From Ilumatobacteraceae bacterium (lineage in GTDB: Bacteria > Actinomycetota > Acidimicrobiia > Acidimicrobiales > Iamiaceae), in assembly GCA_025463265.1 (NCBI GenBank), contig JAOBWH010000195.1:1-44916 (forward strand): a stretch of DNA of 44,916 bases. Reading direction: 5' to 3'. Position numbers and translations under genes: made by a program. Under the pieces are notes generated by a model. The model was not told the origin of the DNA. It did no database searches and saw nothing but the letters and a program-made list of their open reading frames with translations. Positions 26,314 through 42,936 of this stretch are shown one piece after another (the first letter of the stretch is position 1; each line of letters begins with the position of its first letter).

Positions 26314-26760
26314 CTACGCCACAGACGCCCGCTGTGTCCTATCTTCGATCAGCCAGGAGACTCGCGCTGCGTCGAGGTACTGGAAACTCTGCGGTGGACG
26401 CTTCACGCCTGGAATCGCGTCGAGGCTCAGTGGCTCCCCGAGCCGGTGTGATCGCCGGACTCGGATGGCGGCTGCGGTGCGAGCACCCTCGAAGTAGGAG
26501 CGGAACTCGCGGCGGGTTATGCCGCACACCTCCCGGTGGTCGTTCCAGATCCGTGTCGGGGCCGCGAGGTCAACGCCTGCGACCTCGAACCAGCCGACGA
26601 TCGCGCTGACGGGGGCCGTGGCATAGACGATGACGTGGGTGGTGTCGCCTGAAACTGGCACCCGTCGAAGCTCGACGCGCTTGTGGCCGTCGAGGATGGC
26701 GTTGGCATGGCGCGGGTGGATCGACAGCAGGGCTACGCGCCCAATCGACTGATCAGCCAC
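26314..26760 (-). CDS. ASCH-domain protein (PUA-like fold)
   Basis: A 148-residue protein. The N-terminus VALLSIHPRHANAILDGHKR then VELRRVPV is the classic ASCH opening (S-I-x-P-x-x-A-x-x-I-x-x-G-x-K-x-x-E-x-R). VIVYATAPVSAIVGWFEV gives the next strands of the beta-barrel. ASCH domains bind RNA or nucleosides and some are amidohydrolases or RNases. Here the Lys-x-x-x-Glu-x-Arg trio is kept, so RNA binding or cleavage is possible. The GTG at 26760 lies within the end of the PIN-GNAT-PUA gene (28-nt overlap), so the two are translationally coupled and probably act together. Confidence 0.88.
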   Translation of the reverse strand: MADQSIGRVALLSIHPRHANAILDGHKRVELRRVPVSGDTTHVIVYATAPVSAIVGWFEVAGVDLAAPTRIWNDHREVCGITRREFRSYFEGARTAAAIRVRRSHRLGEPLSLDAIPGVKRPPQSFQYLDAARVSWLIEDRTQRASVA

Positions 26761-28190
26761 GGGATGGCCTCCTGGTTGATGCGGTTGATGGTCTGCGGCG
26801 CTGCCGTGAGCGCACGTTCACGCTTCAGTTCGCTGAGCGTGATCGGCTGGTCTAGGAACCGATCTTGGCGGAACAGGAGCGCCAGGACCTGATTCTTGGC
26901 GGACATTTCGCTGACCTGGGTCGACGAGTAGACGGTGCGGGTGCCGACGAGGGTCAGGATCGCGTCTTGATCCTGAGAAACAAGGGAGTCCTCCAGGACC
27001 CCGACGGTTGTGACGGCTCGTCGGTCCCCAGATCGGTAGAACAGCAGGGTCGCCCCAGGACGCATCTGGCGGACGTTTGCATGGCAGAGGTACGCCTTCC
27101 GAAGAGCGTTGCCGTGTGGGGGCGGCGCGAGCAGGGTGAACTGCTCGCCGGGAGCCTCGGGGAACAGGCTGCTGTGGAAATGCGGCTGGATGGGAATCAC
27201 GAAGGTCTGTTCTGGCTCGACGAGGAGGGCGGGTGGGCCGTACGCAACGTGGTGGGCCAGCGGCCCGAGCGCAGGTTCGCCGAGGTGTCCGGCCGTGAGC
27301 GTCTTGACCATCCTCCGCTCGCCGGTCGCTTGGTACCCGTGGTCGCGGAACCCGAAGGCTTCGAGCATGGCGATCAGCTCGACCTGGCGCGGGTAGGCCG
27401 TGACCCAGAGGGCGTCGCATCGTCCGTGGACGTGGTTGAGCATCGCCTTCAGGAGCAGTTCCCCATACCGGCTGCCCTTGAACTCCTCGCCCACCTTGAA
27501 GGTGCAGACCTTGGTGATCCGACCCCCGAGCTGCGGCTCGTCGTCGTCCTCCTTGACGATGCACAACCCGGCGACCTCGCGGTCCGGTCCGTCGATGACG
27601 AATGCCTTCCGTCCTTCACGGGCCTTTGCGCTGTACCACTGGTCGAAGTCGTAGTCCACCCGCAGCGAGTCGAAGAACGGGTCGGTGAGGTTGACCTCGT
27701 ACATGAAGCGGTGATCGACACTCGGGATGAAGTCGGCGGGCTTGAGCGCCAGCGCATCGAGCAGCGCCACGGCATCCGCGAGCGTGTAGACGCTGCTCGA
27801 CAGCCCGACGCGACGGGCCTTCCGGTGGATGCCATCGTCCTGGGTGACGAGGCCATGTACCGCGTCGCCTGCCACCGCGGCGAGGAGCTGGTGGTCGTAC
27901 CAGTCATGGCTGCCAGCAGCAGGGACACCCAGTTCGGCTTCGAGAGCAGGCTGGGGACCCGGCGGATGTTCGAGCGTGGGGTACCGGCGGATGAGTTCCA
28001 GCCGCATCTGCCGCCGCTTCTCGTCGCGGTCGTGGCTGATCTCGTCGGGCAGCGTCGGGTGGACGAGAAGTTGATGTCCGCCCGACGCCAGGCGAGCGAG
28101 GTCCAAGCTCAGCCGGGTCGCACCCTCGACATCGCCGCTCGCGACAGGCTCACTGCTGATGACCACATTGGTGTCGATCAGGAACCGCAC
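26733..28190 (-). CDS. PIN-GNAT-EVE/PUA triple-domain protein
   Basis: A 485-residue fusion. Residues 1-150 are a PIN nuclease: LIDTNVVIS with D6, HPTLPDEI with D49/E50, D96 and D99 in HDWYDHQL, and D118/D119 in VTQDDGIHRKARRVGL, the full acidic set. Residues about 165-300 are a GNAT acetyltransferase (AFVIDGPDREVAGLCIV, the acyl-CoA loop FKGSRYGELLLKAM near 237-250, ELIAMLEAFGFRDHG). Residues about 325-455 are EVE/PUA-like (FVIPIQPHFHSSLFPE, MRPGATLLFYRSGDRRAVTT). An RNase, an acetyl donor site and an RNA or modified-base reader in one chain suggest a toxin or defence effector acting on RNA. The GTG at 28190 has GGGAGG about 5 nt before it. It overlaps the ASCH gene. Confidence 0.88.
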   Translation of the reverse strand: MRFLIDTNVVISSEPVASGDVEGATRLSLDLARLASGGHQLLVHPTLPDEISHDRDEKRRQMRLELIRRYPTLEHPPGPQPALEAELGVPAAGSHDWYDHQLLAAVAGDAVHGLVTQDDGIHRKARRVGLSSSVYTLADAVALLDALALKPADFIPSVDHRFMYEVNLTDPFFDSLRVDYDFDQWYSAKAREGRKAFVIDGPDREVAGLCIVKEDDDEPQLGGRITKVCTFKVGEEFKGSRYGELLLKAMLNHVHGRCDALWVTAYPRQVELIAMLEAFGFRDHGYQATGERRMVKTLTAGHLGEPALGPLAHHVAYGPPALLVEPEQTFVIPIQPHFHSSLFPEAPGEQFTLLAPPPHGNALRKAYLCHANVRQMRPGATLLFYRSGDRRAVTTVGVLEDSLVSQDQDAILTLVGTRTVYSSTQVSEMSAKNQVLALLFRQDRFLDQPITLSELKRERALTAAPQTINRINQEAIPWLISRLGA

Positions 28191-28521: not shown

Positions 28522-29742
28522 CTAATGGTCGGCGTGGAGGCCGACGAGGTCCTGGGACAGGTTGAGGTTGAGATATCGGTCCCGGAAGTCCTGGAGCCAC
28601 TGGACATCGGCTGCTGCTTCGATCTGTCCGGTGAGGGCATCGGCGATGGCGGCAATGTCGACGGCCTGGACCGCATCGGGGTCCGTCAGAAGCGCCCGGT
28701 AGCCGTCGACCACCTCAGCGCACTTGGGGTCGCCGGGGTGGTGGACCACGAGCACGATCGGCTCACCGACCTCGGGGAGGACTCGGCTTTCGGACTGAGC
28801 AAGGAGGTGGTTGCGGAACAACTGGGACCAGCGGAGGTCCCCGAGGAGGGCGGGGTCGTCGGTAGCCCACACGTCCCGTGTGAATGCCTCATGGGCGATG
28901 TAGGTGGGCCAGTCGTACGTCTGCTGGCTGAACGGCTCGGTGAGCTTGGTCTCGATGGCAATGCAGCCGGACGTGCCGTCGGGCCGGACGTAGGTGGCGA
29001 AGGCGTCGAAGGCGGTGCCGTCGCCGAGCGCGCTGGAGTTGCGCTCGACCTCGACCGAGGCGACGTGGTCGACCTCGTCATCACCGAGGAGGCCCGCCAT
29101 GAACGCCGAGGCGAGGTCCAGGCGGTGGCGGAGGTGGCCGAACAGGTTGAACGCCATCGGCTGCGAGGCGAGGAGGTTCCGGCTCGTGCGCCACTCGCTC
29201 ACCCCGACTCGGGTGAGGGCAAGTCGTTCGGTGAAGGCTCGATGCGCCTCTGGCGTCAGGAAGTTCCGGCCTGCTGCTGCGGCTTCGTCGTCGAGCATGT
29301 TGCCGCGGATCACGGTGCTGCCCTTATTGGGGCCGACGCCGGGCGACACTCGGAGGCGGAAGGCTCGCCACCAGGTCTGGTGGAGTCGCATCCGGGCGGT
29401 CCAAGGGTCGTCGGAGCCGGACTGCTGGCCGAGGAAGTCGTGCCACGGCCGGGCCAGCAACGTCAGGTCACCCGGCTCCGGCTGGCGGATCACGGCGGAC
29501 TCCAGCGTCATCTTGCCGGTCTCGGAGGCGGCGAGCAGATCGTCCTGGGTGGCCCATTGAAGGGTGTCGCCTGGGTCCCGCTCGAATCGCAGGAGTACCC
29601 GACCGTCAGGCTCGGGGCCTTCCACCACGCCGAAGCGCAGCGACACGAAGCTGCCGCCGTCAGCGGTGTCGACTGCGGCCCGCCAGGGGAATGCGTCGTG
29701 GAGCTGTCGGTCGGCGTGCTGTCCAGTCCAGGGGTCCGTCAT
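28522..29742 (-). CDS. PGN_0703-like putative restriction endonuclease (PD-(D/E)XK)
   Basis: A 406-residue protein. The block LLASQPMAFNLFGHL (about 190-204), VEVERN (near 230), AFDAFATYVRPDGTSG with D246, and CIAIETKLTEPFS with E264-x-K266 follow the layout of PGN_0703-family putative restriction endonucleases, which carry a PD-(D/E)XK nuclease core. The N-terminal 140 residues (FVSLRFGVVEGPEPDGRVLL) resemble no family I can name. Activity is inferred only from the D...ExK core. The ATG at 29742 lies 19 nt downstream of the UDG-like gene, making this the last gene of the hsdM-S-R transcript. Confidence 0.8.
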   Translation of the reverse strand: MTDPWTGQHADRQLHDAFPWRAAVDTADGGSFVSLRFGVVEGPEPDGRVLLRFERDPGDTLQWATQDDLLAASETGKMTLESAVIRQPEPGDLTLLARPWHDFLGQQSGSDDPWTARMRLHQTWWRAFRLRVSPGVGPNKGSTVIRGNMLDDEAAAAGRNFLTPEAHRAFTERLALTRVGVSEWRTSRNLLASQPMAFNLFGHLRHRLDLASAFMAGLLGDDEVDHVASVEVERNSSALGDGTAFDAFATYVRPDGTSGCIAIETKLTEPFSQQTYDWPTYIAHEAFTRDVWATDDPALLGDLRWSQLFRNHLLAQSESRVLPEVGEPIVLVVHHPGDPKCAEVVDGYRALLTDPDAVQAVDIAAIADALTGQIEAAADVQWLQDFRDRYLNLNLSQDLVGLHADH

Positions 29743-29761: not shown

Positions 29762-30979
29762 TCAGGGTGTGATGCCGGGCAGGCGATCGAGGGTGGTGGG
29801 CCACGCCAGGATCACGTCGGCCTCGGCGCATACCTGCAGCCAGCGTTGGTCGAGGGGTGCCCGTTCGACCACGAGGGCGGCTTGCACGTCGGGGTGGCCG
29901 TAGCTGCGGAGCCGGTGCCGGTAGTCGAGTACCTGGCCGAGGCCGTAGCGGATCTGATGGGCTTCGTTGTCGGGGGTGAGGCTCTTGATCTCGGCGACGA
30001 TGGTGGTACCGCCAACGGTCCAGGCGAGGTCGTATGGGCAGTCGGGAAGCTGTCGTCGGGGCTGGTGGCCGTGGGCGATGAGTCTCTGAGCCAGAAGCTG
30101 CTCGGTAGATGCGTGCGCTTGGATTCCTCGGCCGACGAGGTCTGGGTCGGGTTGCGCCGGACGGATGATCACCGGGGTCGCTGGTGGGTCAGTGCCGACC
30201 CATGTGGGTCCGAGCAGCGGGACGTGGTCGGGGGTGCCTGGTTGGCTCGGGGAGTCGAGCAGGCTCCGGGCCTGGTGGGCGAGGCGGGGTACCCAGTCCT
30301 GCTTCTTCTCGCCGTGTCGTTCGTAGGTGCGGCCGTTCCAGGCGATGACGAGCGGTTCAGGATCGAAACGGGAGGGGTCGATGAAGCCCTCCACCCGGAC
30401 CGTGGGGGCGACGATGACTGATGGCTGGATCATGGCGACGATCTGGGTGAAGTCGTGGACCGGCTGGCACAGGCGCGCAAGCCGATCGCCGAGGCCGTCG
30501 CGAGACATCTGGCACGCAGCCAGGTTCGCTATGGCGACCTGGCTGCGGTCGAGGCCCAGGTGCTCCTCGACGAACCAGGCGATGCGGCTGCGCCAATACG
30601 GGTTGCTGTCCTGGTCGAGACGCGCCGCCGTACGCCAGTCGTCAAGGAATCGCCGATCAGCCTTGGCTCCTTCGTAGGGACGGTTGCGGACCCATGCCTC
30701 ACACACTCCAGCCCGCTGATCATGTGGGCGCGTGGGTTCTGCGGGATCTTGCCCCCAGGCAAGTGACGTGACGAGTACCCCTCCGGGCGCGTAGGCGCTG
30801 CCGACGTAGGCGGGGTTCAGACGACTCGGATCGCTGACGCTGCCGCCTGCTGCCCGGCACGCTTCGAGGTGGCCTTCGGGCGTCTCGGCGAGCACGCGCC
30901 AGGCCCACGCCAACCAGTTCACTTCGCTGGCGGTGAACTCCCCCGCCAGCGTGCTGGGCATGGCGATCGGATCAGGCAT
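29762..30979 (-). CDS. UDG-like domain fused to a PD-(D/E)XK nuclease
   Basis: A 405-residue two-part protein. Residues about 65-230 resemble family 4/5 uracil-DNA glycosylases in order: GGVLVTSLAWGQDPAEP for the G-x-x-P loop, VAIANLAACQMSRDG for the central N-x-x-x-C strand, then a helix and QPSVIVAPT. The classical C-terminal H-P-S motif is not obvious, so activity is doubtful. Residues about 290-360 form a nuclease core: E293, D317 (CPYDLAW), E330-x-K332 (VAEIKSL) and Q349 (GLGQVLDYR), the E-D-ExK-Q order of many restriction-type nucleases. The ATG at 30979 overlaps the hsdR stop by one base. A base-recognition module joined to a nuclease would suit attack on modified phage DNA. Confidence 0.8.
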   Translation of the reverse strand: MPDPIAMPSTLAGEFTASEVNWLAWAWRVLAETPEGHLEACRAAGGSVSDPSRLNPAYVGSAYAPGGVLVTSLAWGQDPAEPTRPHDQRAGVCEAWVRNRPYEGAKADRRFLDDWRTAARLDQDSNPYWRSRIAWFVEEHLGLDRSQVAIANLAACQMSRDGLGDRLARLCQPVHDFTQIVAMIQPSVIVAPTVRVEGFIDPSRFDPEPLVIAWNGRTYERHGEKKQDWVPRLAHQARSLLDSPSQPGTPDHVPLLGPTWVGTDPPATPVIIRPAQPDPDLVGRGIQAHASTEQLLAQRLIAHGHQPRRQLPDCPYDLAWTVGGTTIVAEIKSLTPDNEAHQIRYGLGQVLDYRHRLRSYGHPDVQAALVVERAPLDQRWLQVCAEADVILAWPTTLDRLPGITP

Positions 30980-33957
30980 CAGGAAGCGTCTCGGAGCCGG
31001 TCGTAGACGATGCGGGCGAAGTGGGTCTGGACGGCTTCGCGGAGGGTCTTGTCGTCGAGGATGCGCTTGAAGATCTCGTCGTTGGCGTCGGTGCGGGAGA
31101 TGACAGCGGCGAGGAACTTGCGGTCGAAGCCGAAGGTGAAGTTGTCGAAGTCGTTCTCCAGGGCTTGGGCCTGGATCTCCTCGTCGGCTTCGAGGTCCAT
31201 ACCGACCTGTTCGAAGAACAGTTGGTCTGCGTCGGTGAAGTTCGTGCCGAAGCGGGTGTTCAAGGTGTCGACTAGCGAGGAGAGCGGGATCTCGTTGGGG
31301 TCGGTCTGCTTGCCCTTGCCGTCGAAGATCTGGATGACCTCGCCGGTCTCGGGGTCTAGGGAGATGGACCCTTCGCTGATCATTTCGTGGCGGAGGTGGG
31401 TGAGTTCGACCTCGGAGCCGAGATCGAGCCGGTCGCCGGGTTCGGCCTTGATGAGCGCGGCGAGGGCACGGCAGTAGCGGTAGTCGCGTTCGAGGCCGGT
31501 GTCGGTGAAGGTGACGACCTGGGCCAAGAAGGCGTAGGTGCGCAAGAAGCGGTTGAGCTTGTCGGCAAACTCGATCTGCTCCTCATCGTCGAGGGCGATG
31601 AAGCGGTCGACCGCCGGTGAGAGGGCTGCGTGGATGCGGCCGTGGTCGGTCACATCGCCCATCGACATGAGCACCGCAACCACGGAGGCGATCTCATCGG
31701 AGCGCAGCACTCCGAAGGGGTCGAGGGCGGTGCGAGTGTCGTACAGCAGGTTGGGGTCCGTTGGCGGGGCGACCGTCGCGGTGTACCAGGGTTGGAACGC
31801 CTCGGCGATGTCGTCGGCGTCGTTGCGGAAGTCGAGGACGAAGGTGTCCTTCTTGTCGGGGTGGGTGCGGTTGAGCCGCGAGAGGGTCTGGACGGCGGCG
31901 AGGCCGGTGAGGGTCTTGTCGACGAACATGGTGTGTAGCAAGGGCTGGTCGAAGCCGGTTTGGTACTTCTCGGCCACTACGAGGACTTGGTAGGCGTCGG
32001 TGTCGAACGCCTTGACGGTCTGGGACTCGGGGATGCCGTTCATGTTCGACTCGGTCCGGTCCTCACCGGAGTCGGCGACCTTGCCGGAGAAGGCCACCAG
32101 GGCGGAGATGTCGGCGTAGCCCTTCTCGGCGATGTAGGCGTCGATCGCGTCTTTGTACCGAACCGCATGAAGGCGGGAGGAGGTGACGACCATCGCTTTC
32201 GCCTTGCCGCCGATCTCGGTGGAGGTGTGGCGGCGGAAGTGCTCGACGACGATCTCGGCCTTCTGAGCCAGGTTGTGGGGATGGAGGTCCACGAACCGGG
32301 CGATCGCCCGGCGGGCCTTGACCTCGTCGTACTCGGGGTCGGTCTCGACCTTCTTCTGGATGCGCCAGTACGTCTTGTATGTCGTGTAGTTGGCGAGCAC
32401 GTCGAGGATGAAGCCCTCCTCGATCGCTTGGCGCATCGAGTACAGGTGACTGGCCTCGTACCGCTGCGTGTCTGGGTTCAGGTGCCCGAACAGTTCGAGG
32501 GTCTTTGCCTTCGGGGTGGCGGTGAACGCGAAGAACGACAGGTTCTGCTGGGGGCCTCGTCCGGCGACGGCCTTCGCCATTGCCTCCTCGACCGGGTCGA
32601 CCGGCTCTGCGAGGAGGTCGTTGTCCTCGGCTTCGGCGGCGGTGAGTTCTTGCTCCTCGGAGCCGGACAGGGCGAGGCGGAGGTCCTTGGCGGCTTCTCC
32701 GGTCTGGGAGGAGTGGGCCTCGTCGACGATCACGGCGTAGCGGCGACCCGGTGTCGCGCCGATCTTGTCGAGCACGAACGGGAACGTCTGGATCGTGGTG
32801 ATGATGATCCGTGCCCGCTCCCCCTCCAGTGCCTCCGCCAACTGCTTCGAGCCGGACTCGATGCGCTCCACCACGCCGTGGGTGTGCTCGAACTGGTAGA
32901 TCGTCTCCTGCAACTGGCGGTTCAAGACGATGCGGTCGGTGATCACCACCACCTTGTCGAACACCTTCGCATCCGCCTCCGAGTGCAAGACCGAGAGCCG
33001 GTGCGCTAGCCAGGCGATCGTGTTCGACTTCCCGGACCCGGCGGAGTGCTGGACCAGGTAGTTCTCCCCTGCACCGTTCGCCCTAGCGTCGGCTTCGAGG
33101 GTGAGAACGGCGTCCCACTGGTGGAACCGCGGGAAGATCACCGACGCCGGTGCCCCCTTCTTATCGGCGGGTTCGACATGGACGAAGCGGTTCAGCAGGT
33201 CAAGCCACGCGTCGCGCTGCCACACCCGCTCCCACAGATACGCGGTCCGGTGCCCAGCGGCGTTCGGTGGGTTCCCCGGTCCGAGGTCGTGTCCGCGGTT
33301 GAAGGGCAGGAACCTCGTCGACTTCCCCGCCAGCCGGGTGGTCATCGCCACGGTCTCGGTGTCCACTGCGAAGTGGACCACGGCTCGGCGCAGCAGCGTG
33401 TTCTTCGGGTCCCGATCCTGGCGGTACTGAGTCTTGGCGTGCTCCACCGACTGCCCCGTCAGGTGCGTCTTGAGTTCAGCCGTCGCCACGGGGAGGCCGT
33501 TCACGAACAGGCACAGGTCCAAGGTCTTGGTCGACTTCGGGTCGAACGGCAACTGCCGGGTCACCGTCAGCCTGTTCGCTGCGTACCGCTCTGTCAGCAC
33601 CTCTGTCAGGCCGTGAGCCGCCTTGAAGAACGCCAGACGGATCGTCACCCCGTGATCGACGACGCCATGACGCAGCACGTCCACCGTGCCTCGCGCATCA
33701 AGCTCCGAGGCCAGGCGCTTCACAAACTTCGACTGCGCGCCCTCATCCGCCCCGCCGTACCGGGACTTGAGCTTCTCCCACTCGTCCGTCTGCGTGGCAC
33801 CGATGAACGAGAACAACTCGGCTGTGTCCACCGCCGCCACCGCATCGAAGTCCTTCGGCGACCCCTGCGCCGTCCCGACCTTCACCGCCTGATAGCCGCC
33901 AGCCTCCACGAGTGCCTTGCAGATCGCCTCCTCGAACACACCCTCGGTCGCCTTCAC
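30979..33957 (-). CDS. hsdR: Type I restriction enzyme, R subunit
   Basis: HsdR, 992 residues, is the motor and nuclease of a type I restriction-modification enzyme. The N-terminal nuclease has D147 (LDLCLFVNG) and E161-L-K163 (ATAELKT). The SF2 helicase shows Walker A SAGSGKSNT (305-313), VVITDRIVLNRQLQ, DEAH at 412-415 (VIVDEAHSSQTG), SFFAFTATPK, and later EKYQTGFDQPLLHTMFVD and LSRLNRTHP (motif VI). The C-terminal helical part should bind the methylase. The protein looks complete, so restriction is probably active. The GTG at 33957 overlaps the hsdS stop by 4 nt. It acts in the cytoplasm on DNA lacking HsdM/HsdS methylation. Confidence 0.96.
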   Translation of the reverse strand: MKATEGVFEEAICKALVEAGGYQAVKVGTAQGSPKDFDAVAAVDTAELFSFIGATQTDEWEKLKSRYGGADEGAQSKFVKRLASELDARGTVDVLRHGVVDHGVTIRLAFFKAAHGLTEVLTERYAANRLTVTRQLPFDPKSTKTLDLCLFVNGLPVATAELKTHLTGQSVEHAKTQYRQDRDPKNTLLRRAVVHFAVDTETVAMTTRLAGKSTRFLPFNRGHDLGPGNPPNAAGHRTAYLWERVWQRDAWLDLLNRFVHVEPADKKGAPASVIFPRFHQWDAVLTLEADARANGAGENYLVQHSAGSGKSNTIAWLAHRLSVLHSEADAKVFDKVVVITDRIVLNRQLQETIYQFEHTHGVVERIESGSKQLAEALEGERARIIITTIQTFPFVLDKIGATPGRRYAVIVDEAHSSQTGEAAKDLRLALSGSEEQELTAAEAEDNDLLAEPVDPVEEAMAKAVAGRGPQQNLSFFAFTATPKAKTLELFGHLNPDTQRYEASHLYSMRQAIEEGFILDVLANYTTYKTYWRIQKKVETDPEYDEVKARRAIARFVDLHPHNLAQKAEIVVEHFRRHTSTEIGGKAKAMVVTSSRLHAVRYKDAIDAYIAEKGYADISALVAFSGKVADSGEDRTESNMNGIPESQTVKAFDTDAYQVLVVAEKYQTGFDQPLLHTMFVDKTLTGLAAVQTLSRLNRTHPDKKDTFVLDFRNDADDIAEAFQPWYTATVAPPTDPNLLYDTRTALDPFGVLRSDEIASVVAVLMSMGDVTDHGRIHAALSPAVDRFIALDDEEQIEFADKLNRFLRTYAFLAQVVTFTDTGLERDYRYCRALAALIKAEPGDRLDLGSEVELTHLRHEMISEGSISLDPETGEVIQIFDGKGKQTDPNEIPLSSLVDTLNTRFGTNFTDADQLFFEQVGMDLEADEEIQAQALENDFDNFTFGFDRKFLAAVISRTDANDEIFKRILDDKTLREAVQTHFARIVYDRLRDAS

Positions 33958-35243
33958 GCCGCCGCCCCAGGAATCTCAAGCTCGCCTGTCACCGCTGCGG
34001 TGATCAACGCCTGGCGATGCTCGACAAGCAAGCGGATCTGCCGTTCCAAACCCGCGACGATTCCCTCCTGGGCCGCTGTCTTGCGCCGCAGGATCGTCAG
34101 GACCGACTCCTGCTCATCCAGGGGTGGCACCACTATCGGGATGTCAGAGATGTCACTCATGTTGAGGTGAGCCACCGTCGTCGAGTTGGAGAGGACCTCG
34201 ATGAACTGTTGAGCCGCTCCGGCATAGATCGAGTGAACCAGCCACTCACCGGACACAACGGAGGGATCAACCCGGAGCAGGACCATTCGCTGGCCGATGC
34301 AGAGCGGCAGATCAGGAGGCACCTGACAGGCCTCACCGGCGGGAGCCTCCCGCGTGAACATCACGTCGCCTGGTCTCGGCACGCCTCGCTCCGTCCATTC
34401 CTTCCAACCCGCCTCGTCGGTGTACCGGGCACCCTCAAGGACCAAGCGACCCTTCTTCACGTTTGCAGTGCGCACCACTAGGAATCGACCTTCGTCAACC
34501 ACGGGGGCCGTCTTGTGGGCGGTGTCGAGGATCTCACCGACGACATGGCGCAGCCGGTGGAGCCGCCAGCCCTCGGGAATCTCCGGGGCGAACTCGTTGC
34601 CCGTGGGACGGAGAGTTGCCTCGGCATTCAGTCCCACCGTTACGGCGCGCGAGACAAGCTGCTGTCTCCATTCGCTTGCGAGGGAAATCAATGACCGCTT
34701 CTTGGCGACGAGGGAATCGATGCGGCTCGTCTCTGCATCGAGGTATTCCGCCAGCGCGATCTGCGTTGGGACGGGTGGCACGACGATCGGGATCGGGTGA
34801 AAGTCTGCCTTGGTGATCCGACGATCGAACGTCGTCTCCGCCCGGACCAGCAGCTTGTACTGATCGAAATACGGCTGCGAACGAAGTAGGTGGTGGAGGT
34901 AGCGAGGATGGACGCTCGGGTCGAGTCGGTACACGCGGTAGTCCGGGCTGACCGCACCACGAACCTGCGACACGCCGATCGCCCCTCCGATGAGCCACAT
35001 CGGGTTCACGACGAGATCGCCCGGCTCGACCAGCCAATAGCGAAGGAGGTAGTCGGCGGACGGCTGCTGTCGTGCGTCCTCGGCCCGCGGGCGCACCTCG
35101 CCAGCAGAGGTGAGCGACAACAGGACCGCGTCGCCGTGGGCGTTCGGCTCCTCGCGCAGGGTCGCGACCCGTCTGATCTCAACGCGGCCCCAGGCGGACG
35201 GCGATGCATCAAGGCGTGGGGTCACAGCACCGAACGCCTTCAC
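33954..35243 (-). CDS. hsdS: Type I restriction enzyme, specificity subunit
   Basis: HsdS, 429 residues, chooses the bipartite target. Two target-recognition halves each end in the conserved P-P-x-x-x-Q block and a long helix: IPIVVPPVPTQIALAEYLDA then ETSRIDSLVAKKRSLI (about 151-190), and IPIVVPPLDEQESVLTILRR then GIVAGLERQIRLLVEHRQAL (about 370-420). The halves differ, so the site should be asymmetric; the sequence cannot be predicted by eye. No internal frameshift, extra hsdS copy or invertible repeat is seen. The GTG at 35243 overlaps the hsdM stop by 4 nt. Confidence 0.95.
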   Translation of the reverse strand: MKAFGAVTPRLDASPSAWGRVEIRRVATLREEPNAHGDAVLLSLTSAGEVRPRAEDARQQPSADYLLRYWLVEPGDLVVNPMWLIGGAIGVSQVRGAVSPDYRVYRLDPSVHPRYLHHLLRSQPYFDQYKLLVRAETTFDRRITKADFHPIPIVVPPVPTQIALAEYLDAETSRIDSLVAKKRSLISLASEWRQQLVSRAVTVGLNAEATLRPTGNEFAPEIPEGWRLHRLRHVVGEILDTAHKTAPVVDEGRFLVVRTANVKKGRLVLEGARYTDEAGWKEWTERGVPRPGDVMFTREAPAGEACQVPPDLPLCIGQRMVLLRVDPSVVSGEWLVHSIYAGAAQQFIEVLSNSTTVAHLNMSDISDIPIVVPPLDEQESVLTILRRKTAAQEGIVAGLERQIRLLVEHRQALITAAVTGELEIPGAAA

Positions 35244-37273
35244 TCGGTGACCTCGGCGAGCAAGGCTTGGATCTCACCCTCCAGTTGTTTGATCTCGGCG
35301 TCGATCTCCGCGAGCGGTCGGGGTGGGACGTACTGGTAGAAGTGCCGCGTGAGGGGAATCTCGTAGCCGAGCCTGGTCTTGGTGTGGTCGACCCAGGCGT
35401 CGGGCACCCAGGGCAGAACCTCGCTGCGGACGTAGTCCTCGATCGCGGTGCGGTACTCGATGGTGGCGAGGCGGGCGGTCACGTCGTTCTCATAGGTGAC
35501 GGGCACCTCGGGTAGCGGGACGTTCTCGGCGTCGCGGAGGTCGGGGTCGGGTTCGGGGTTGCCCTTGCGGTCGATGATCGCTGGGGCGGCGGGGTCTCTG
35601 ATTGCGAGCGCGTTCATGACTGCCTTGTGCATGGGTTTGCCGCCCATACCGGACCCGCCGGATCCGCACACTGCGTGGTTGGCGATCGAGGTGGCCGCAT
35701 CGAGGTCGTCAGATCGAAGGATGCCGACCTGGCTCGGGAACCAGTCGCGCATGTACGCCTGGTCCTCGGCGTTGAGCTTTGCGAATGGCCTCGAAGCCTC
35801 GACGGAAGCGAGCGTCTCGTCGGTGACCTCCCAGCGGAGTCGGAGGGGGCGCTCCACCGTGATGCGCTGGAATCCGAAGGCGGTGTTGGGGAAAATCTTG
35901 ACCCGGTCACCTTCGGTGAACTCGCCGTAGAGCCGGGTGATCTCGTCGATCTGGTCGGCGCTGATCTCCTTTCGCTTCTCGCCGAGGCTCTTGCGCATCT
36001 TTGCGAACAGGTCGCGGGCGTCGACCAACTGGACCTTGCCTCGGCGTTCGGGCTTCTTCCGGTTAGTGACGACCCAGAAGTAGGTCGAGATGCCGGTGTT
36101 GTAGAAGATCTGATCTGGCAGGGCGACGACCGCTTCAAGCCAATCGTTCTCGATGATCCACCGGCGGATCTCGGACTCCCCGGACCCTGCGGCTCCCGTG
36201 AACAGTGGGGAGCCGTTGAAAACGATCGCCAAGCGAGAGCCGCCCTTCTCGACGGGGCGCATCTTGGAGATCATGTGCTGGATGAACAGGAAGCTGCCGT
36301 CGTTGATGCGCGGCAGCCCGGCTCCGAACCTTCCGGCGAACCCCTTGGTCGCCGCCTCGTCCCGGACCACGTCCTCGATCTTGTTCCAGGCCACTCCGAA
36401 GGGCGGGTTGGCGAGGAGGTAGTCGAACTGCTGGCCGTCGTGGCCGTCCTCGGAGAAGGAGTTGCCCTGCGTGATGTGGGAGGCGTCCTGCCCCTTGAGC
36501 ATCATGTCCGACCGACAAATCGCGTACGACTCGGGGTTGAGTTCCTGGCCGAACACCTCCAGGCGGGCGTTCGGGTTCAGGGTGCGGAGGTGGTCCTCGG
36601 CGACGGAGAGCATGCCGCCGGTGCCGCACGCGGGATCGAACAGGGTCTTGACGACGCCGGGCTTGCGGAGCAGGTCGTCGTCCTCGATGAACAGGAGGTT
36701 CACCATGAGCCGGATGACCTCGCGCGGGGTGAAGTGCTCGCCTGCGGTCTCGTTGGAGAGTTCGGAGAACTTCCTGATCAGCTCCTCGTAGAGGTAGCCC
36801 ATCTCCAGGTTGGACACGGCCTCGGGGTGCAGATCGATCTCGGCGAACTTCGAGGTCACCAGGTAGAGGAGCTTCGCCTTGTCCATGCGGGCGATGTGCG
36901 TGTCGAAGTCGAACTTCTCCAGCACGTCGCGCGCCCCGGTGGAGAACCCGGCGATGTACGCCTGCAGATTCGCGGCCACGTTGTTCGGGTCGTCGAGCAC
37001 CCGGCTGAGCGTGAGCGGAGAGGTGTTGAAGAACTGCTGCCCGGCCACGCCTTCGAGGACCGGGTCGATGTTCTCGATCCCCCGCTTCGTAAGCGCCTCG
37101 TGCTGGGCCAGCACCTCAGCCTTGGTGGCCTCAAGCACGCAGTCGAGTCGGCGCAGCACCGTGAACGGCAGAATCACCCGTCCGTACTCATGGGGCTTGT
37201 AATCACCACGGAGCAAATCAGCCACCGACCAGATGAACGCCCCGTGATTCTTGACCACTGCACTGTCCGACAC
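35240..37273 (-). CDS. hsdM: Type I restriction enzyme, N6-adenine methyltransferase subunit
   Basis: HsdM, 677 residues, methylates adenine in the HsdS target. The N-terminal helical domain (HGAFIWSVADLLRGDYKPHE) is followed by the SAM-binding motif FDPACGTGGML (212-222) and the catalytic motif NPPF (289-292, LLANPPFGVAW). GSRLAIVFNGSPLFTGAAGS and ALPDQIFYNTGISTYFWVVT are also typical. A C-terminal extension of about 150 residues has basic and coiled regions (EIDAEIKQLEGEIQALLAEV). The frame is open upstream, but the GTG at 37273 has GGAGAGG about 9 nt before it and matches family N-termini. It follows the Abi-like gene by 71 nt and is the first gene of hsdM-S-R. Confidence 0.96.
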   Translation of the reverse strand: MSDSAVVKNHGAFIWSVADLLRGDYKPHEYGRVILPFTVLRRLDCVLEATKAEVLAQHEALTKRGIENIDPVLEGVAGQQFFNTSPLTLSRVLDDPNNVAANLQAYIAGFSTGARDVLEKFDFDTHIARMDKAKLLYLVTSKFAEIDLHPEAVSNLEMGYLYEELIRKFSELSNETAGEHFTPREVIRLMVNLLFIEDDDLLRKPGVVKTLFDPACGTGGMLSVAEDHLRTLNPNARLEVFGQELNPESYAICRSDMMLKGQDASHITQGNSFSEDGHDGQQFDYLLANPPFGVAWNKIEDVVRDEAATKGFAGRFGAGLPRINDGSFLFIQHMISKMRPVEKGGSRLAIVFNGSPLFTGAAGSGESEIRRWIIENDWLEAVVALPDQIFYNTGISTYFWVVTNRKKPERRGKVQLVDARDLFAKMRKSLGEKRKEISADQIDEITRLYGEFTEGDRVKIFPNTAFGFQRITVERPLRLRWEVTDETLASVEASRPFAKLNAEDQAYMRDWFPSQVGILRSDDLDAATSIANHAVCGSGGSGMGGKPMHKAVMNALAIRDPAAPAIIDRKGNPEPDPDLRDAENVPLPEVPVTYENDVTARLATIEYRTAIEDYVRSEVLPWVPDAWVDHTKTRLGYEIPLTRHFYQYVPPRPLAEIDAEIKQLEGEIQALLAEVTE

Positions 37274-37344
37274 GCGTGCCGCCTCTCCCGAGTCCGAGTT
37301 GTCGCCGAAGGGTATGCGACTGACCCTGAGCCGCGGGTCGGGAC

Positions 37345-38046
37345 TCAGAACGTTGCGAGTTCGGCCCTGGAGACAGCCAGTGCGGTCGGCACCGTCGTGT
37401 GATGTTGGACCCAGGTGAGCGTTGGCCGGTGGAGGAACCCGATGATGTTCACGATCCGAGCGTGGTCCTCGTTGAGCTTGCGGCCGAAGATCGGCTCGTG
37501 GTGAGCGATGCGGTTGCGAAGGGTCCGCAACTGGTCCAAGGCGGTGTGCAGCCCATGACGCTGTTTCACCTTGGGCGTGAAGATCCGATGGAGGTCCGAC
37601 CGCCAGACGGTGGTGTCGTAGGCGTTTGCGAATAGTGCCACCCAAAAGCCGTAGGAGAGTTCGGCCACTACTCGGTCAGGTGTCACGGGCTTCGACCGAT
37701 CAGTCAGTCGCTCGATGGCGTCCTCAACACGTCGGATCTCCGGGCCTCGGAGGTTCTTCGAGTCGAGGATCCAGCCTTCTCCATGCCCTGCGGTCATCGC
37801 TCCGTGAACCGAGTTGCGGAGAGTGACCTCTAGCGCCTGAAGTGGCCCGTAGAAGGCAGAGGCCACCGCCGTGTTCCATGCGTAGAGGCGCATAGCTGCC
37901 TCGGGGTCCCCCTCGCTCGCTTCGAGGTACGTCTTGAACCGGACCTCCGTCATCGCCTGAGCGAGGTCGGCTGCGACCCCGTTCCCGTAGTCAAATGGTT
38001 GATCCTGCACGAACCCTCCGGTATGGTGGTCGCCGTAAGCCCCCAT
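37345..38046 (-). CDS. Abi-like HEPN protein
   Basis: A 233-residue protein of the Abi_2/AbiD-F-like group (HEPN RNases linked to abortive infection). It shows YAWNTAVASAFYGPLQALEV then TLRNSVHGAM in the helical core, ELSYGFWVALFANAYD, and the HEPN catalytic motif R177-x4-H182 in LRTLRNRIAHHEPIFGR, exactly as in Abi proteins. HEPN members usually cut RNA when triggered by phage. The ATG at 38046 has AGGAGAGG just upstream; longer frames start upstream but lack a good site. It precedes hsdM by 71 nt on the same strand, so it may be co-expressed and act when restriction fails. The 186-bp gap upstream (38047-38232) shows no gene. Confidence 0.9.
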   Translation of the reverse strand: MGAYGDHHTGGFVQDQPFDYGNGVAADLAQAMTEVRFKTYLEASEGDPEAAMRLYAWNTAVASAFYGPLQALEVTLRNSVHGAMTAGHGEGWILDSKNLRGPEIRRVEDAIERLTDRSKPVTPDRVVAELSYGFWVALFANAYDTTVWRSDLHRIFTPKVKQRHGLHTALDQLRTLRNRIAHHEPIFGRKLNEDHARIVNIIGFLHRPTLTWVQHHTTVPTALAVSRAELATF

Positions 38047-38232
38047 CAGCCTCTCCTCGCCTCGGCGGGTGATGCGGTTGGGGGCAGATACCTTTTGGGG
38101 CCTGACCTGCGGCGACTGCATCGTACCCCGCATGCCGCCCACGACAGGGACGCATCGTCGGCGCTGGCGCTGGTGCGGCTGCATGCAGTCGTCCGAGGGT
38201 CGGCCGTTGGGGAACCTCACCGCCTGACGCCG

Positions 38233-38991
38233 TCAGGAAGCAGCGCGAAGCCGAGCAACCTCGACCCGACGGCGGGCACGCTCCCGAGCGGCCGGGTCCA
38301 GCACGCGGGCCACAGCGTCTGCTCGCCAGATGCCTCCTCGCTTGGATGGTGCTCCCTCGGCGGTCAGGGCAGTGGCGATGGCGTTCATGGAGAGGCCGGA
38401 GGCCTTCAGCTCGACCATGCGGGCGATGACGGCCTGCTCGACGGGGTCCTCGACGAGTTCCCCGCTCTCGGCCCTCCAGCCATACCTGGGAGACCCAGCG
38501 GTGTAACCGCCAGCAGCCGCCTTGGCCTGCCGACCGTCACGAAGGCGTTTGACGATGAGTGACCTGTCGAGCTGCGCCGCCGAGCCAACCACCAACCGCA
38601 GGAAGGTTCGCATCGGGTCGTCGGGGTCGTCGGCCAACACCTCACCCTGATCGGCCGTTAGTACTCGGCCCTGGTGCCGCCAGATGTGGGCGAGGATGGC
38701 CTCCTGGGTGGTCAGCGCCCTCGCAAGCCGATCCATCCGGGCAACAAGCAGGCCGTCGGACTCACCTGCCTCGATGGCTGAGATGGCGCAGGACAGGCCC
38801 TCGCGATCGACAGCATCGGCAGTGCCGGAGATGCCTTCGTCGGTACAGACCTGCACGATGCGATGGCCGTGCTTCGACGCCCAACTAGCAACAGCCTCGG
38901 CCTGGACCTGCAGGCCGTAGCCGTCGAGTTGCTGCTCGGTACTCACCCGAAGGTAGGACACGAGCCGGAGCGACTTCTCAATGGTTCTCAT
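38233..38991 (-). CDS. Serine recombinase (resolvase/invertase family)
   Basis: A 252-residue site-specific recombinase. The N-terminal catalytic domain has the nucleophile in VSYLRVSTEQQLDGYGLQVQ (Ser17) and the Arg-rich site VARMDRLARALTTQEAI. The C-terminal 100 residues carry a short recombinase/helix-turn-helix region (GGYTAGSPRYGWRAESGELV, LSMNAIATALTAEGAPSKRG). It is shorter than large phage serine integrases (usually 450 or more residues) and longer than simple resolvases, and has no zinc-ribbon or coiled-coil domain. It may resolve, invert or integrate a small element. An inverted repeat lies upstream at 39049-39083. The ATG at 38991 is used. Confidence 0.93.
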   Translation of the reverse strand: MRTIEKSLRLVSYLRVSTEQQLDGYGLQVQAEAVASWASKHGHRIVQVCTDEGISGTADAVDREGLSCAISAIEAGESDGLLVARMDRLARALTTQEAILAHIWRHQGRVLTADQGEVLADDPDDPMRTFLRLVVGSAAQLDRSLIVKRLRDGRQAKAAAGGYTAGSPRYGWRAESGELVEDPVEQAVIARMVELKASGLSMNAIATALTAEGAPSKRGGIWRADAVARVLDPAARERARRRVEVARLRAAS

Positions 38992-40961: not shown

Positions 40962-41771
40962 CTAGTCCCGTCGCTGTTCCGACCGACATGGAGCGATGAT
41001 CGTCGCTGCCGGTCGCTGCACCCCGTCGACTGCGCCAAGGACCTGGCAGTGGCTCGCGCCATGCCGGACCCATAGCTGGGCGGTCCACGCGCACAGCGCA
41101 GCGTCGAACAGATCCTCCCGGTGCTTGTAATCGCGGTCCGCCAGCGGAGACGGCACGTTGACGAGTTCCCTCAAGTCAGGATGACTCCGAAGCAGCAGTG
41201 GTGGGTCGGTGGTCTCCAACCTGCCGACCCGACGCACCATGTCATCGAAGTTGCGGGCACGGATGGGCCGGAACTCGGCGGTCCGCACCTTCGGCGGCTT
41301 GCGCTTGTACACGGGCCGCTCGTCGTCGTAGCCCAGCACTGGCGTGCCGACCAGGGTCGTGTAGGGGTAGCACTCACTGAAGACCCGGCCGTGCGAAGGT
41401 GGTCCGTCAAGGCCGTCGTCGTAGCGCCATCCCATGCCTTCGAGCTGCTGCCTGAGTACGACGCCAGCGAGGCGGGCTGAGCCGAGATTGGTGCTGTTCG
41501 CCGATACCTTCCAGCGCCCGTACCGCTGGCCGACCTGCTTCTCACACACTCGCTGGCCCATCGAGTTGTCGACGATCAACGGTGCGTCCACGAACACGAG
41601 CGAGTCATCGGTGGCGAGTCGCTCGATCCAGGCGATCGTGTCCGCGACGCCGATGGTCCACCCGGCGTCGACCACCGTTCCGTCGGGGTCCAGGGCCACA
41701 ACGCCAGTCTCGTTCGCGGCTCGGCTACCAGTCCCTTCCGCCCACGCCAAATCGATCCCGATCGTCCGCAT
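40962..41771 (-). CDS. DUF429 protein (RNase H-like fold)
   Basis: A 269-residue DUF429 protein. It opens with MRTIGIDLAWAEGTGSR, a metal-site-like D in the first strand as in RNase H-fold families, then VVALDPDGTVVDAGW, SLVFVDAPLIVDN, RVCEKQVGQRYGRW and a late DYKHREDLFDAALCAWTAQ with acidic residues that could complete an active site. DUF429 proteins are predicted nucleases or nucleotide-binding proteins; none of this is proven. The ATG at 41771 overlaps the stop of the GIY-YIG-like gene by one base. Third and last gene of a compact operon. Confidence 0.9.
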   Translation of the reverse strand: MRTIGIDLAWAEGTGSRAANETGVVALDPDGTVVDAGWTIGVADTIAWIERLATDDSLVFVDAPLIVDNSMGQRVCEKQVGQRYGRWKVSANSTNLGSARLAGVVLRQQLEGMGWRYDDGLDGPPSHGRVFSECYPYTTLVGTPVLGYDDERPVYKRKPPKVRTAEFRPIRARNFDDMVRRVGRLETTDPPLLLRSHPDLRELVNVPSPLADRDYKHREDLFDAALCAWTAQLWVRHGASHCQVLGAVDGVQRPAATIIAPCRSEQRRD

Positions 41772-42493
41772 CAATGCGTGCGTCCGATCCAGTAGTCCAG
41801 CCGTTCACACAGCCGAGAGTTGACTGAGTCGTTGACGTGGTTGACGTTCCAGAGGCCGGAGCGTTGGATCGCTGCGCGGTCGGCGTGGTGGCCGAGCCAG
41901 CCTGGGGACGGCCGGTCGGCTTGGGAGTTGGCGAGGTTGCTTAGGAGGGCGATCGAACTGGACTCGATCAGTCCTCGGTCACTGGCCCTGCCCGGCGCGT
42001 CGTCGACGTCGAGCCAGAGGAACGGCATCTGCCCGATGCGCTGGCTGACCGCCCGCTCCAGGGTCAGCTCCAGGTCCTTTGCTCCTGGCGGCGCACTGCC
42101 GCCTCGACCCCAGGTCTGACGGGCTGGGTCGTGCTCGAAGTCGGACTCCGACGCCAATAGGGCGGTGCCGGTGTGGAGCCGGAAGATCGAGCCGCGGTGG
42201 TTGCCTCCTCCGGCGTAGGTCCCGCCGACGGTTCCCCGGTGCTGGGAGAGGCGACCCCAGAGCGTCGACTTGGAGGTGGCCGTCAGGGCGTGGGTGCCTA
42301 CTCGAACGACGCGCGGAGTGCCATCTCGGCGGAGTTCGCCTGGCTCGAAGAAGAAGTACACGCCGCGGTCGGGCCAGCCCGTTCTGCCACCGCACTCCGA
42401 TAGCCGCCGTGGACCGCCCGTTCGCTCAGCGAGTGTCCCGAGTAAGGCGTAGAACTCGTCGAGGTCTGCAGGAGTGGGCATGGGCGAGGTCAC
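41771..42493 (-). CDS. GIY-YIG-like domain protein
   Basis: A 240-residue protein. DRGVYFFFEPGELRRDG (GVY near 44-46) followed by PRVVRVGTHALTATSKSTLW and GRLSQHRGT resembles a GIY-YIG nuclease core in which the second motif reads RVG, with Arg81 and His85 in the helix that usually bears the catalytic Arg. NHRGSIFRLHTG could supply the next strand. The catalytic Glu is not located with certainty. The C-terminal half (SSSIALLSNLANSQADRPSP, GWLGHHADRAAI, LWNVNHVND) is typical of uncharacterised island proteins with this N-terminus. The GTG at 42493 overlaps the DUF6884 stop by 4 nt. Confidence 0.8.
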   Translation of the reverse strand: MTSPMPTPADLDEFYALLGTLAERTGGPRRLSECGGRTGWPDRGVYFFFEPGELRRDGTPRVVRVGTHALTATSKSTLWGRLSQHRGTVGGTYAGGGNHRGSIFRLHTGTALLASESDFEHDPARQTWGRGGSAPPGAKDLELTLERAVSQRIGQMPFLWLDVDDAPGRASDRGLIESSSIALLSNLANSQADRPSPGWLGHHADRAAIQRSGLWNVNHVNDSVNSRLCERLDYWIGRTH

Positions 42494-42936
42494 CGATGTC
42501 CGCTGGAGGGGCCGCGGGCGTAGAGCGCAAGCTGCTCACCTTGGCGCAGTCCAGCCGCCGGGATCGTGACAGACGCACCCGCGGCGACCAGGCCGTCGAC
42601 AAGGCCCCAATCCCGGTAGTCGGCACCGGCATGGATCTCGAACTCCCGCGCCGCCAAGGTGCCCAACTCGGCGTTGAGCTGGCGGAGCACCCGCTCGGTC
42701 CAAGCACGCTTCGCGGATCGCGAGGCAGTGGTGAGGGATTCGTCGTAGGGGTCAAGGAGGCCGTCAGAGGCGACCAGACCGTGCTTCGCCGACAGGATGA
42801 ACCACCTTCCGCACGACTGTTCGACCCACCGCCGTCGGCCGCGAAACAGCGCGGAGGTGTAGAGGTCCTTAGCCGGGGCGCACGAGGTGCCCTTTTGCTT
42901 CACGCAGCCAACCAACCCAACCCGTGTGCCAACCAC
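42490..42936 (-). CDS. DUF6884 protein
   Basis: A 148-residue DUF6884 protein. GLVGCVKQKGTSCAPAKDLY then TSALFRGRRRWVE, WFILSAKHGLVASD and DPYDESL match the family pattern (C-x-K at the front, S-A-K-H-G-L, P-Y-D). The fold is thought to be related to the YaaA-like/archaeosine-TGT accessory superfamily; function is unknown. Starts with GTG at 42936. It is the first gene of the three-gene operon, divergent from the DUF1643 gene across a 173-bp gap with a strong palindrome. Confidence 0.88.
   Translation of the reverse strand: MVGTRVGLVGCVKQKGTSCAPAKDLYTSALFRGRRRWVEQSCGRWFILSAKHGLVASDGLLDPYDESLTTASRSAKRAWTERVLRQLNAELGTLAAREFEIHAGADYRDWGLVDGLVAAGASVTIPAAGLRQGEQLALYARGPSSGHR

Follow-up and report, generated by a model that had tools for sequence, protein, structure and literature searches.

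Gene organization around the fusion gene

The window analyzed in the present study is the whole 44,916-nucleotide stretch of DNA from an Ilumatobacteraceae bacterium, and all positions below refer to it unless another locus is named. The genes of interest, in the order of transcription, are as follows.

35240..37645, minus strand: hsdM, N6 adenine methyltransferase (PADLOC MTase_I, 2e-275; HsdM_N from residue 136)
33954..35243, minus strand: hsdS, specificity subunit (Methylase_S; PADLOC Specificity_I, 7.8e-71)
30979..33957, minus strand: hsdR, type I restriction subunit and upstream neighbour of P0001 (HSDR_N, SWI2_SNF2, T1R_D3-like)
29762..30979, minus strand: P0001, fusion gene of 405 aa, a real open reading frame encoding a UDG-like / PD-(D/E)XK protein
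28522..29742, minus strand: PDDEXK_13 / REase-ARP nuclease gene, downstream of P0001 (PF20796, 6.4e-62; PF22558, 6.3e-23)

The initial annotation had given the same position for P0001 (29762-30979), the motifs that it named are present (GQDP at residues 76-79, VAIANLAACQ at 148-157 and QPSVIVAPT at 185-193), and its numbering of E293, D317, E330, K332 and Q349 is correct. The ATG of P0001 shares one base with the stop codon of hsdR (TGATG), hsdM and hsdS as well as hsdS and hsdR overlap by 4 bases, and the PDDEXK_13 gene begins 19 bases 3' of P0001. Because of these stop/start overlaps and the short 19-base gap, hsdM, hsdS, hsdR, P0001 and the PDDEXK_13 gene look like one coupled five-gene operon, with P0001 as the fourth gene. 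The GC3 of P0001 is 0.80, and that of its neighbours is similar. The listed TTG start of hsdM is probably too far upstream. The host genome is a draft (about 4.0 Mb in 204 contigs); the fusion lies deep inside one 44.9-kb contig and is read in one uninterrupted frame, and both points speak against an assembly artefact.

Several other features were seen at this locus. The PDDEXK_13 / REase-ARP gene is a second accessory nuclease within the hsd operon. Directly upstream of hsdM are genes for an Abi_2 protein and a serine recombinase (37345-38991, minus strand), the presence of which suggests a mobile defence island. Beside the operon (26314-28190, minus strand) are two overlapping genes, one for an ASCH-like protein (a weak match, below the cut-off) and one that begins with a PIN-like region and also has a GNAT match. 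A further stretch (40962-42936, minus strand) holds overlapping genes for DUF429, for a protein without a family and for DUF6884.

The C-terminal nuclease module

The C-terminal part of P0001 has the following features.

29765..30166, minus strand: C-terminal module, XisH/NucS-like PD-(D/E)XK nuclease, residues 272-405 (AF2 and fold matches)
30029..30031, minus strand: D317, predicted catalytic Asp (invariant in 13 of 13 members)
29984..29992, minus strand: E330-I-K332, ExK motif (E and K in 13 of 13)
29933..29935, minus strand: Q349, in the GQ of the next helix (invariant in 13 of 13)

An AF2 model made with the C-terminal homologues only gave residues 281-400 at pLDDT values of mostly 90-98, and the closest solved structures to the module are 2VLD, 5GKE, 2INB and 2OKF. 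Its neighbours by Foldseek and VIA-align were EndoMS/NucS (Z 10.8), the Cdn1/Can2 nucleases, XisH (Z 9.8) and McrC (Z 8.6). The module has the alpha/beta core of PD-(D/E)XK enzymes, which are its top matches (Z up to 10.8). Among the 13 aligned members, D317, W320, E330, K332, G348 and Q349 are invariant. The initial annotation had proposed an E-D-ExK-Q nuclease core, the conservation of which was set in advance as a check; D317, E330, K332 and Q349 passed this comparison, whereas the column of E293, in the first helix, contains E, Q, I, R, C or V, mostly Q, and is thus not a conserved motif residue. In the PD-(D/E)XK superfamily, the acidic residue in the first helix varies and is not a required feature. 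XisH (PF08814) matches 9 of the 13 members (best E value, 1e-4), and P0001 itself scores 16.9 bits against the Pfam cut-off of 25. Since the invariant D, E, K and Q residues, the confident AF2 fold and the structural neighbours agree, the module is, as judged from conservation and modelling, a PD-(D/E)XK nuclease with intact active-site residues, as had been claimed; it is XisH-like, yet not a XisH member by the Pfam rule.

Relationship of the N-terminal half to UDGs

Uracil-DNA glycosylases (UDGs) are repair enzymes that detect aberrant bases in DNA. The N-terminal half has the following features.

30242..30979, minus strand: UDG-superfamily-like putative sensor region, residues 1-246 (profile comparisons)
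30308..30580, minus strand: significant match to the family-4 UDG profile, residues 134-224 (hhalign 135-224, probability 93.9)
30743..30754, minus strand: GQDP, residues 76-79, candidate UDG motif 1 (MAFFT onto GEGPG/GQDP of UDGs)
30524..30526, minus strand: N152, aligned to the base-reading Asn of family-4 UDG (IANV; hhalign and alignment)
30512..30514, minus strand: C156, aligned to a family-4 UDG Fe-S cysteine (invariant column)
30467..30469, minus strand: C171, aligned to a family-4 UDG Fe-S cysteine (invariant column)

Residues 1-246 belong to no family in Pfam, PHROG, PADLOC or NCBIfam, and the Pfam UDG family (PF03167) gave no match to this domain at E values up to 10. The nearest PDB sequence is the family-4 UDG of S. 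tokodaii, with an E value (0.12) that is not significant alone. When 397 genomes were searched in six frames with residues 1-246, the marginal matches included many UDG genes of roughly 200 aa, aligned at about residues 134-191; marginal matches to residues 1-130 were set aside, as these ORFs resemble antisense frames of GC-rich genes. Comparison of residues 1-246 with a family-4 UDG profile by hhalign gave a probability of 93.9% and a score of 52.6, with 200 shuffles at 20.5 or below, and hmmsearch of the UDG profile gave 23.5 bits, with 20,000 shuffles at 13.0 or below. In 1.18 Mb of comparable DNA with 7,937 ORFs, P0001 was found at E = 5.9e-5; every higher-scoring ORF was a UDG, and the best non-UDG was at 0.81. 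The relationship is firm because the hhalign, ORF-field and shuffle controls agree: at the level of sequence, the N-terminal half is related to the UDG superfamily beyond chance. A broader UDG profile gave a weaker signal (E 0.02), and the half is therefore closest to family 4. The division into a UDG-superfamily relative and a PD-(D/E)XK nuclease, as made in the initial annotation, is upheld by the sequence statistics and, in the C-terminal half, also by the structural model.

The UDG-like order of motifs described in the initial annotation was borne out in part. The match beyond chance covers about residues 134-224, which include N152, C156 and C171; GQDP lies outside it, and the alignment that makes it motif 1 is a weaker one. 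In the S. tokodaii UDG, N82 has the base-reading role (PMC11078745). The CxxC pair of the family-4 Fe-S cluster is absent from the N-terminal half, which has only C41 and C93 as other cysteines. As for motif 3, neither HPS nor HPA is present, only H222-G-E or H235-Q-A, in agreement with the earlier remark that a terminal H-P-S motif is lacking. With neither HPS nor the CxxC pair present, catalysis has possibly been lost. The N-terminal motifs of the fusion are known from one sequence.

One explanation of these motifs, the catalytic form of the sensor-nuclease explanation favoured below, is that the protein excises and then cuts. An active glycosylase would make an abasic site in phage DNA, with D78 of GQDP activating water, N152 reading the base and H222 or H235 replacing the His of HPS; the fused nuclease would then cut at or opposite this site. 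A strand break could thus arise without host AP endonucleases, and a single polypeptide would serve as a back-up to the type I system. The letters of GQDP are the same as in the GQDPY loop of UNG (L113), which is its catalytic loop, and resemble GQDPA of a divergent UDG (L147); moreover, N152 is retained, the catalytic set of the nuclease is intact, and excision by Brig1 (see below) offers a precedent. However, besides the position of GQDP beyond the significant match and the missing HPS, GQDP and N152 are about 35 residues further apart than their counterparts in family-4 UDG, and no homologues were found that would show selection on D78, N152 and H222/H235. Taken on its own, we regard this catalytic form as unlikely.

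The N-terminal fold was the other check set in advance. When only the C-terminal homologues were supplied, AF2 gave the N-terminal half in blocks of pLDDT about 30-60, too low for a usable model. With UDG rows added, the mean pLDDT was 46.5, and Foldseek then matched UDGs, a result that is circular owing to the supplied rows and does not count as evidence. A UDG fold is what the profile match would predict. The low pLDDT could instead indicate that the N-terminal half is no more than a UDG in decay, or an alpha/beta domain of other origin, with a role in binding DNA or the HsdR/HsdM complex, so that the specificity would come from the type I complex. The loss of HPS and CxxC and the lack of a Pfam match are consistent with this explanation, but the hhalign, ORF-field and shuffle statistics and the retention of N152, C156 and C171 speak against it, and we consider it unlikely.

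Distribution of the module and its other N-terminal domains

Of 396 genomes sampled from the phylum, 9 have homologues of residues about 258-400; among 397 genomes of the order, 17 have them (the host counted), and scanning GTDB with the alignment of the module turned up 44 loci. The relatives come chiefly from Acidimicrobiia and Streptomyces, and no Pfam family of its own describes the module above the cut-off. Module loci (L012-L018, L021-L034, L065-L110, L165 and L166) are mostly actinobacterial and widespread.

Elsewhere, this module is preceded by varied N-termini. It is fused to MTaX1 (8e-20 and 1.6e-22), a proposed discriminator of modified DNA (PMC10853773), and to an SRA-like domain (SAD_SRA, 2e-6, slightly below the cut-off; ScoMcrA chains in PDB, 4.5e-5). 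Weak matches link it to EVE-like (0.045), Mrr_N/wHTH-like (0.002-0.003) and BRCT-like (0.014) domains, the last of which are not known modified-base readers. Because several of these N-termini are readers of modified DNA, the module seems to be an all-purpose nuclease part that is combined with exchangeable sensors. The proposal that a base reader directs cleavage in P0001 thereby gains independent support from the fusions to SRA-like, EVE-like, MTaX1 and Mrr_N-like domains.

A second fusion of a UDG-like domain with this nuclease was found neither in about 2,000 genome searches (host phylum only, some genomes repeated) nor, with peptide patterns, in GTDB contigs, nor in viral contigs, plasmids and phages; these contained the C-terminal module alone, including two viral contigs. 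None of the 44 GTDB module loci has a UDG-like N-terminus, none of the 23 further genomes searched in the host family contains the fusion, and no description of a UDG-nuclease restriction fusion was found in the literature searched. In the two viral contigs, from IMG/VR (L109 and L110), the module is joined to different N-terminal domains without a family. In Aldersonia sp. NBC_00410 (L108, 9799-10452, minus strand), a stand-alone UDG gene is located some 1.5 kb away from a gene for a BRCT-like/nuclease-module protein, possibly by chance.

These data also bear on the possibility of a role in repair or quality control, in which P0001 would cut at deaminated or mismatched bases of the host chromosome in the manner of NucS/EndoMS. 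EndoMS/NucS are the best structural neighbours of the module, and a UDG-like partner domain would suit such a role. However, presence is patchy (the C-terminal module occurs in 1 of the 23 other family genomes), the gene sits in an hsd operon with Abi_2 and recombinase genes nearby, and the partners of the module include restriction-type readers; this role seems to us very unlikely. A housekeeping repair gene was rejected as the main explanation on the grounds of the operon and the patchy distribution. Furthermore, four other UDG-superfamily genes are present elsewhere in the host genome, and thus P0001 is not the repair copy. These four genes, together with the absence of the fusion in family relatives, point to an accessory, probably defensive role.

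Comparison with known systems and possible function

P0001 resembles family-4 UDG (UDGa; S. tokodaii 4ZBX/4ZBY) significantly along a stretch of about 90 residues, in which the base-reading Asn and two of the four Fe-S cysteines are kept. Unlike family-4 UDG, it lacks the CxxC pair and HPS, has GQDP in place of GE(A/G)PG, and carries extra residues ahead of motif 2 and a fused nuclease. The C-terminal module shares its fold and ExK core with XisH (PF08814) and EndoMS/NucS; the match to the XisH family is below the Pfam cut-off, and NucS has an N-terminal domain different from that of P0001.

Brig1 and Brig3 are UDG-superfamily proteins that protect bacteria from phages through the excision of glucosyl-hmC or hmC; Brig1 homologues occur mostly in Actinobacteria, with the S. 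tokodaii UDG named above as the structurally nearest protein (PMC11078745, PMC13160076). Like them, P0001 is a UDG-superfamily protein in a defence setting, but it carries a fused nuclease, and none is mentioned for the Brig proteins in the text available. With SRA-HNH, EVE-HNH, McrBC and Mrr (PMC3874153, PMC7897488), P0001 would share the layout of a reader joined to a nuclease, and its module is fused in other proteins to SRA-like, EVE-like and Mrr_N-like domains. In contrast to those systems, its putative reader is UDG-like, belonging neither to the PUA superfamily nor to the wHTH domains, and its predicted nuclease is an XisH/NucS-like PD-(D/E)XK enzyme.

We therefore favour, with a probability of roughly 0.55, the explanation that P0001 is an accessory restriction nuclease of the modification-dependent (type IV-like) kind, with a UDG-type sensor, carried by a type I operon. 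In the proposed mechanism, the N-terminal UDG-superfamily domain would scan DNA for a non-canonical base, either uracil or a modified pyrimidine, and flip it out; N152 would hold the base, which might also be excised. The linker (about residues 247-275) would let the XisH/NucS-like PD-(D/E)XK domain cut the backbone nearby, and P0001 could thereby cover phages with modified bases that escape HsdR. In short, P0001 probably cuts invading DNA at unusual bases that it recognizes.

A role of UDG-superfamily glycosylases in bacterial defence was demonstrated only recently, for Brig1 and Brig3. If our explanation is true, UDGs would join SRA, EVE and Mrr_N as modified-base sensors of modification-dependent restriction, and the modular XisH/NucS-like nuclease family, with its swapped N-termini, may be a source of candidate modified-base readers.
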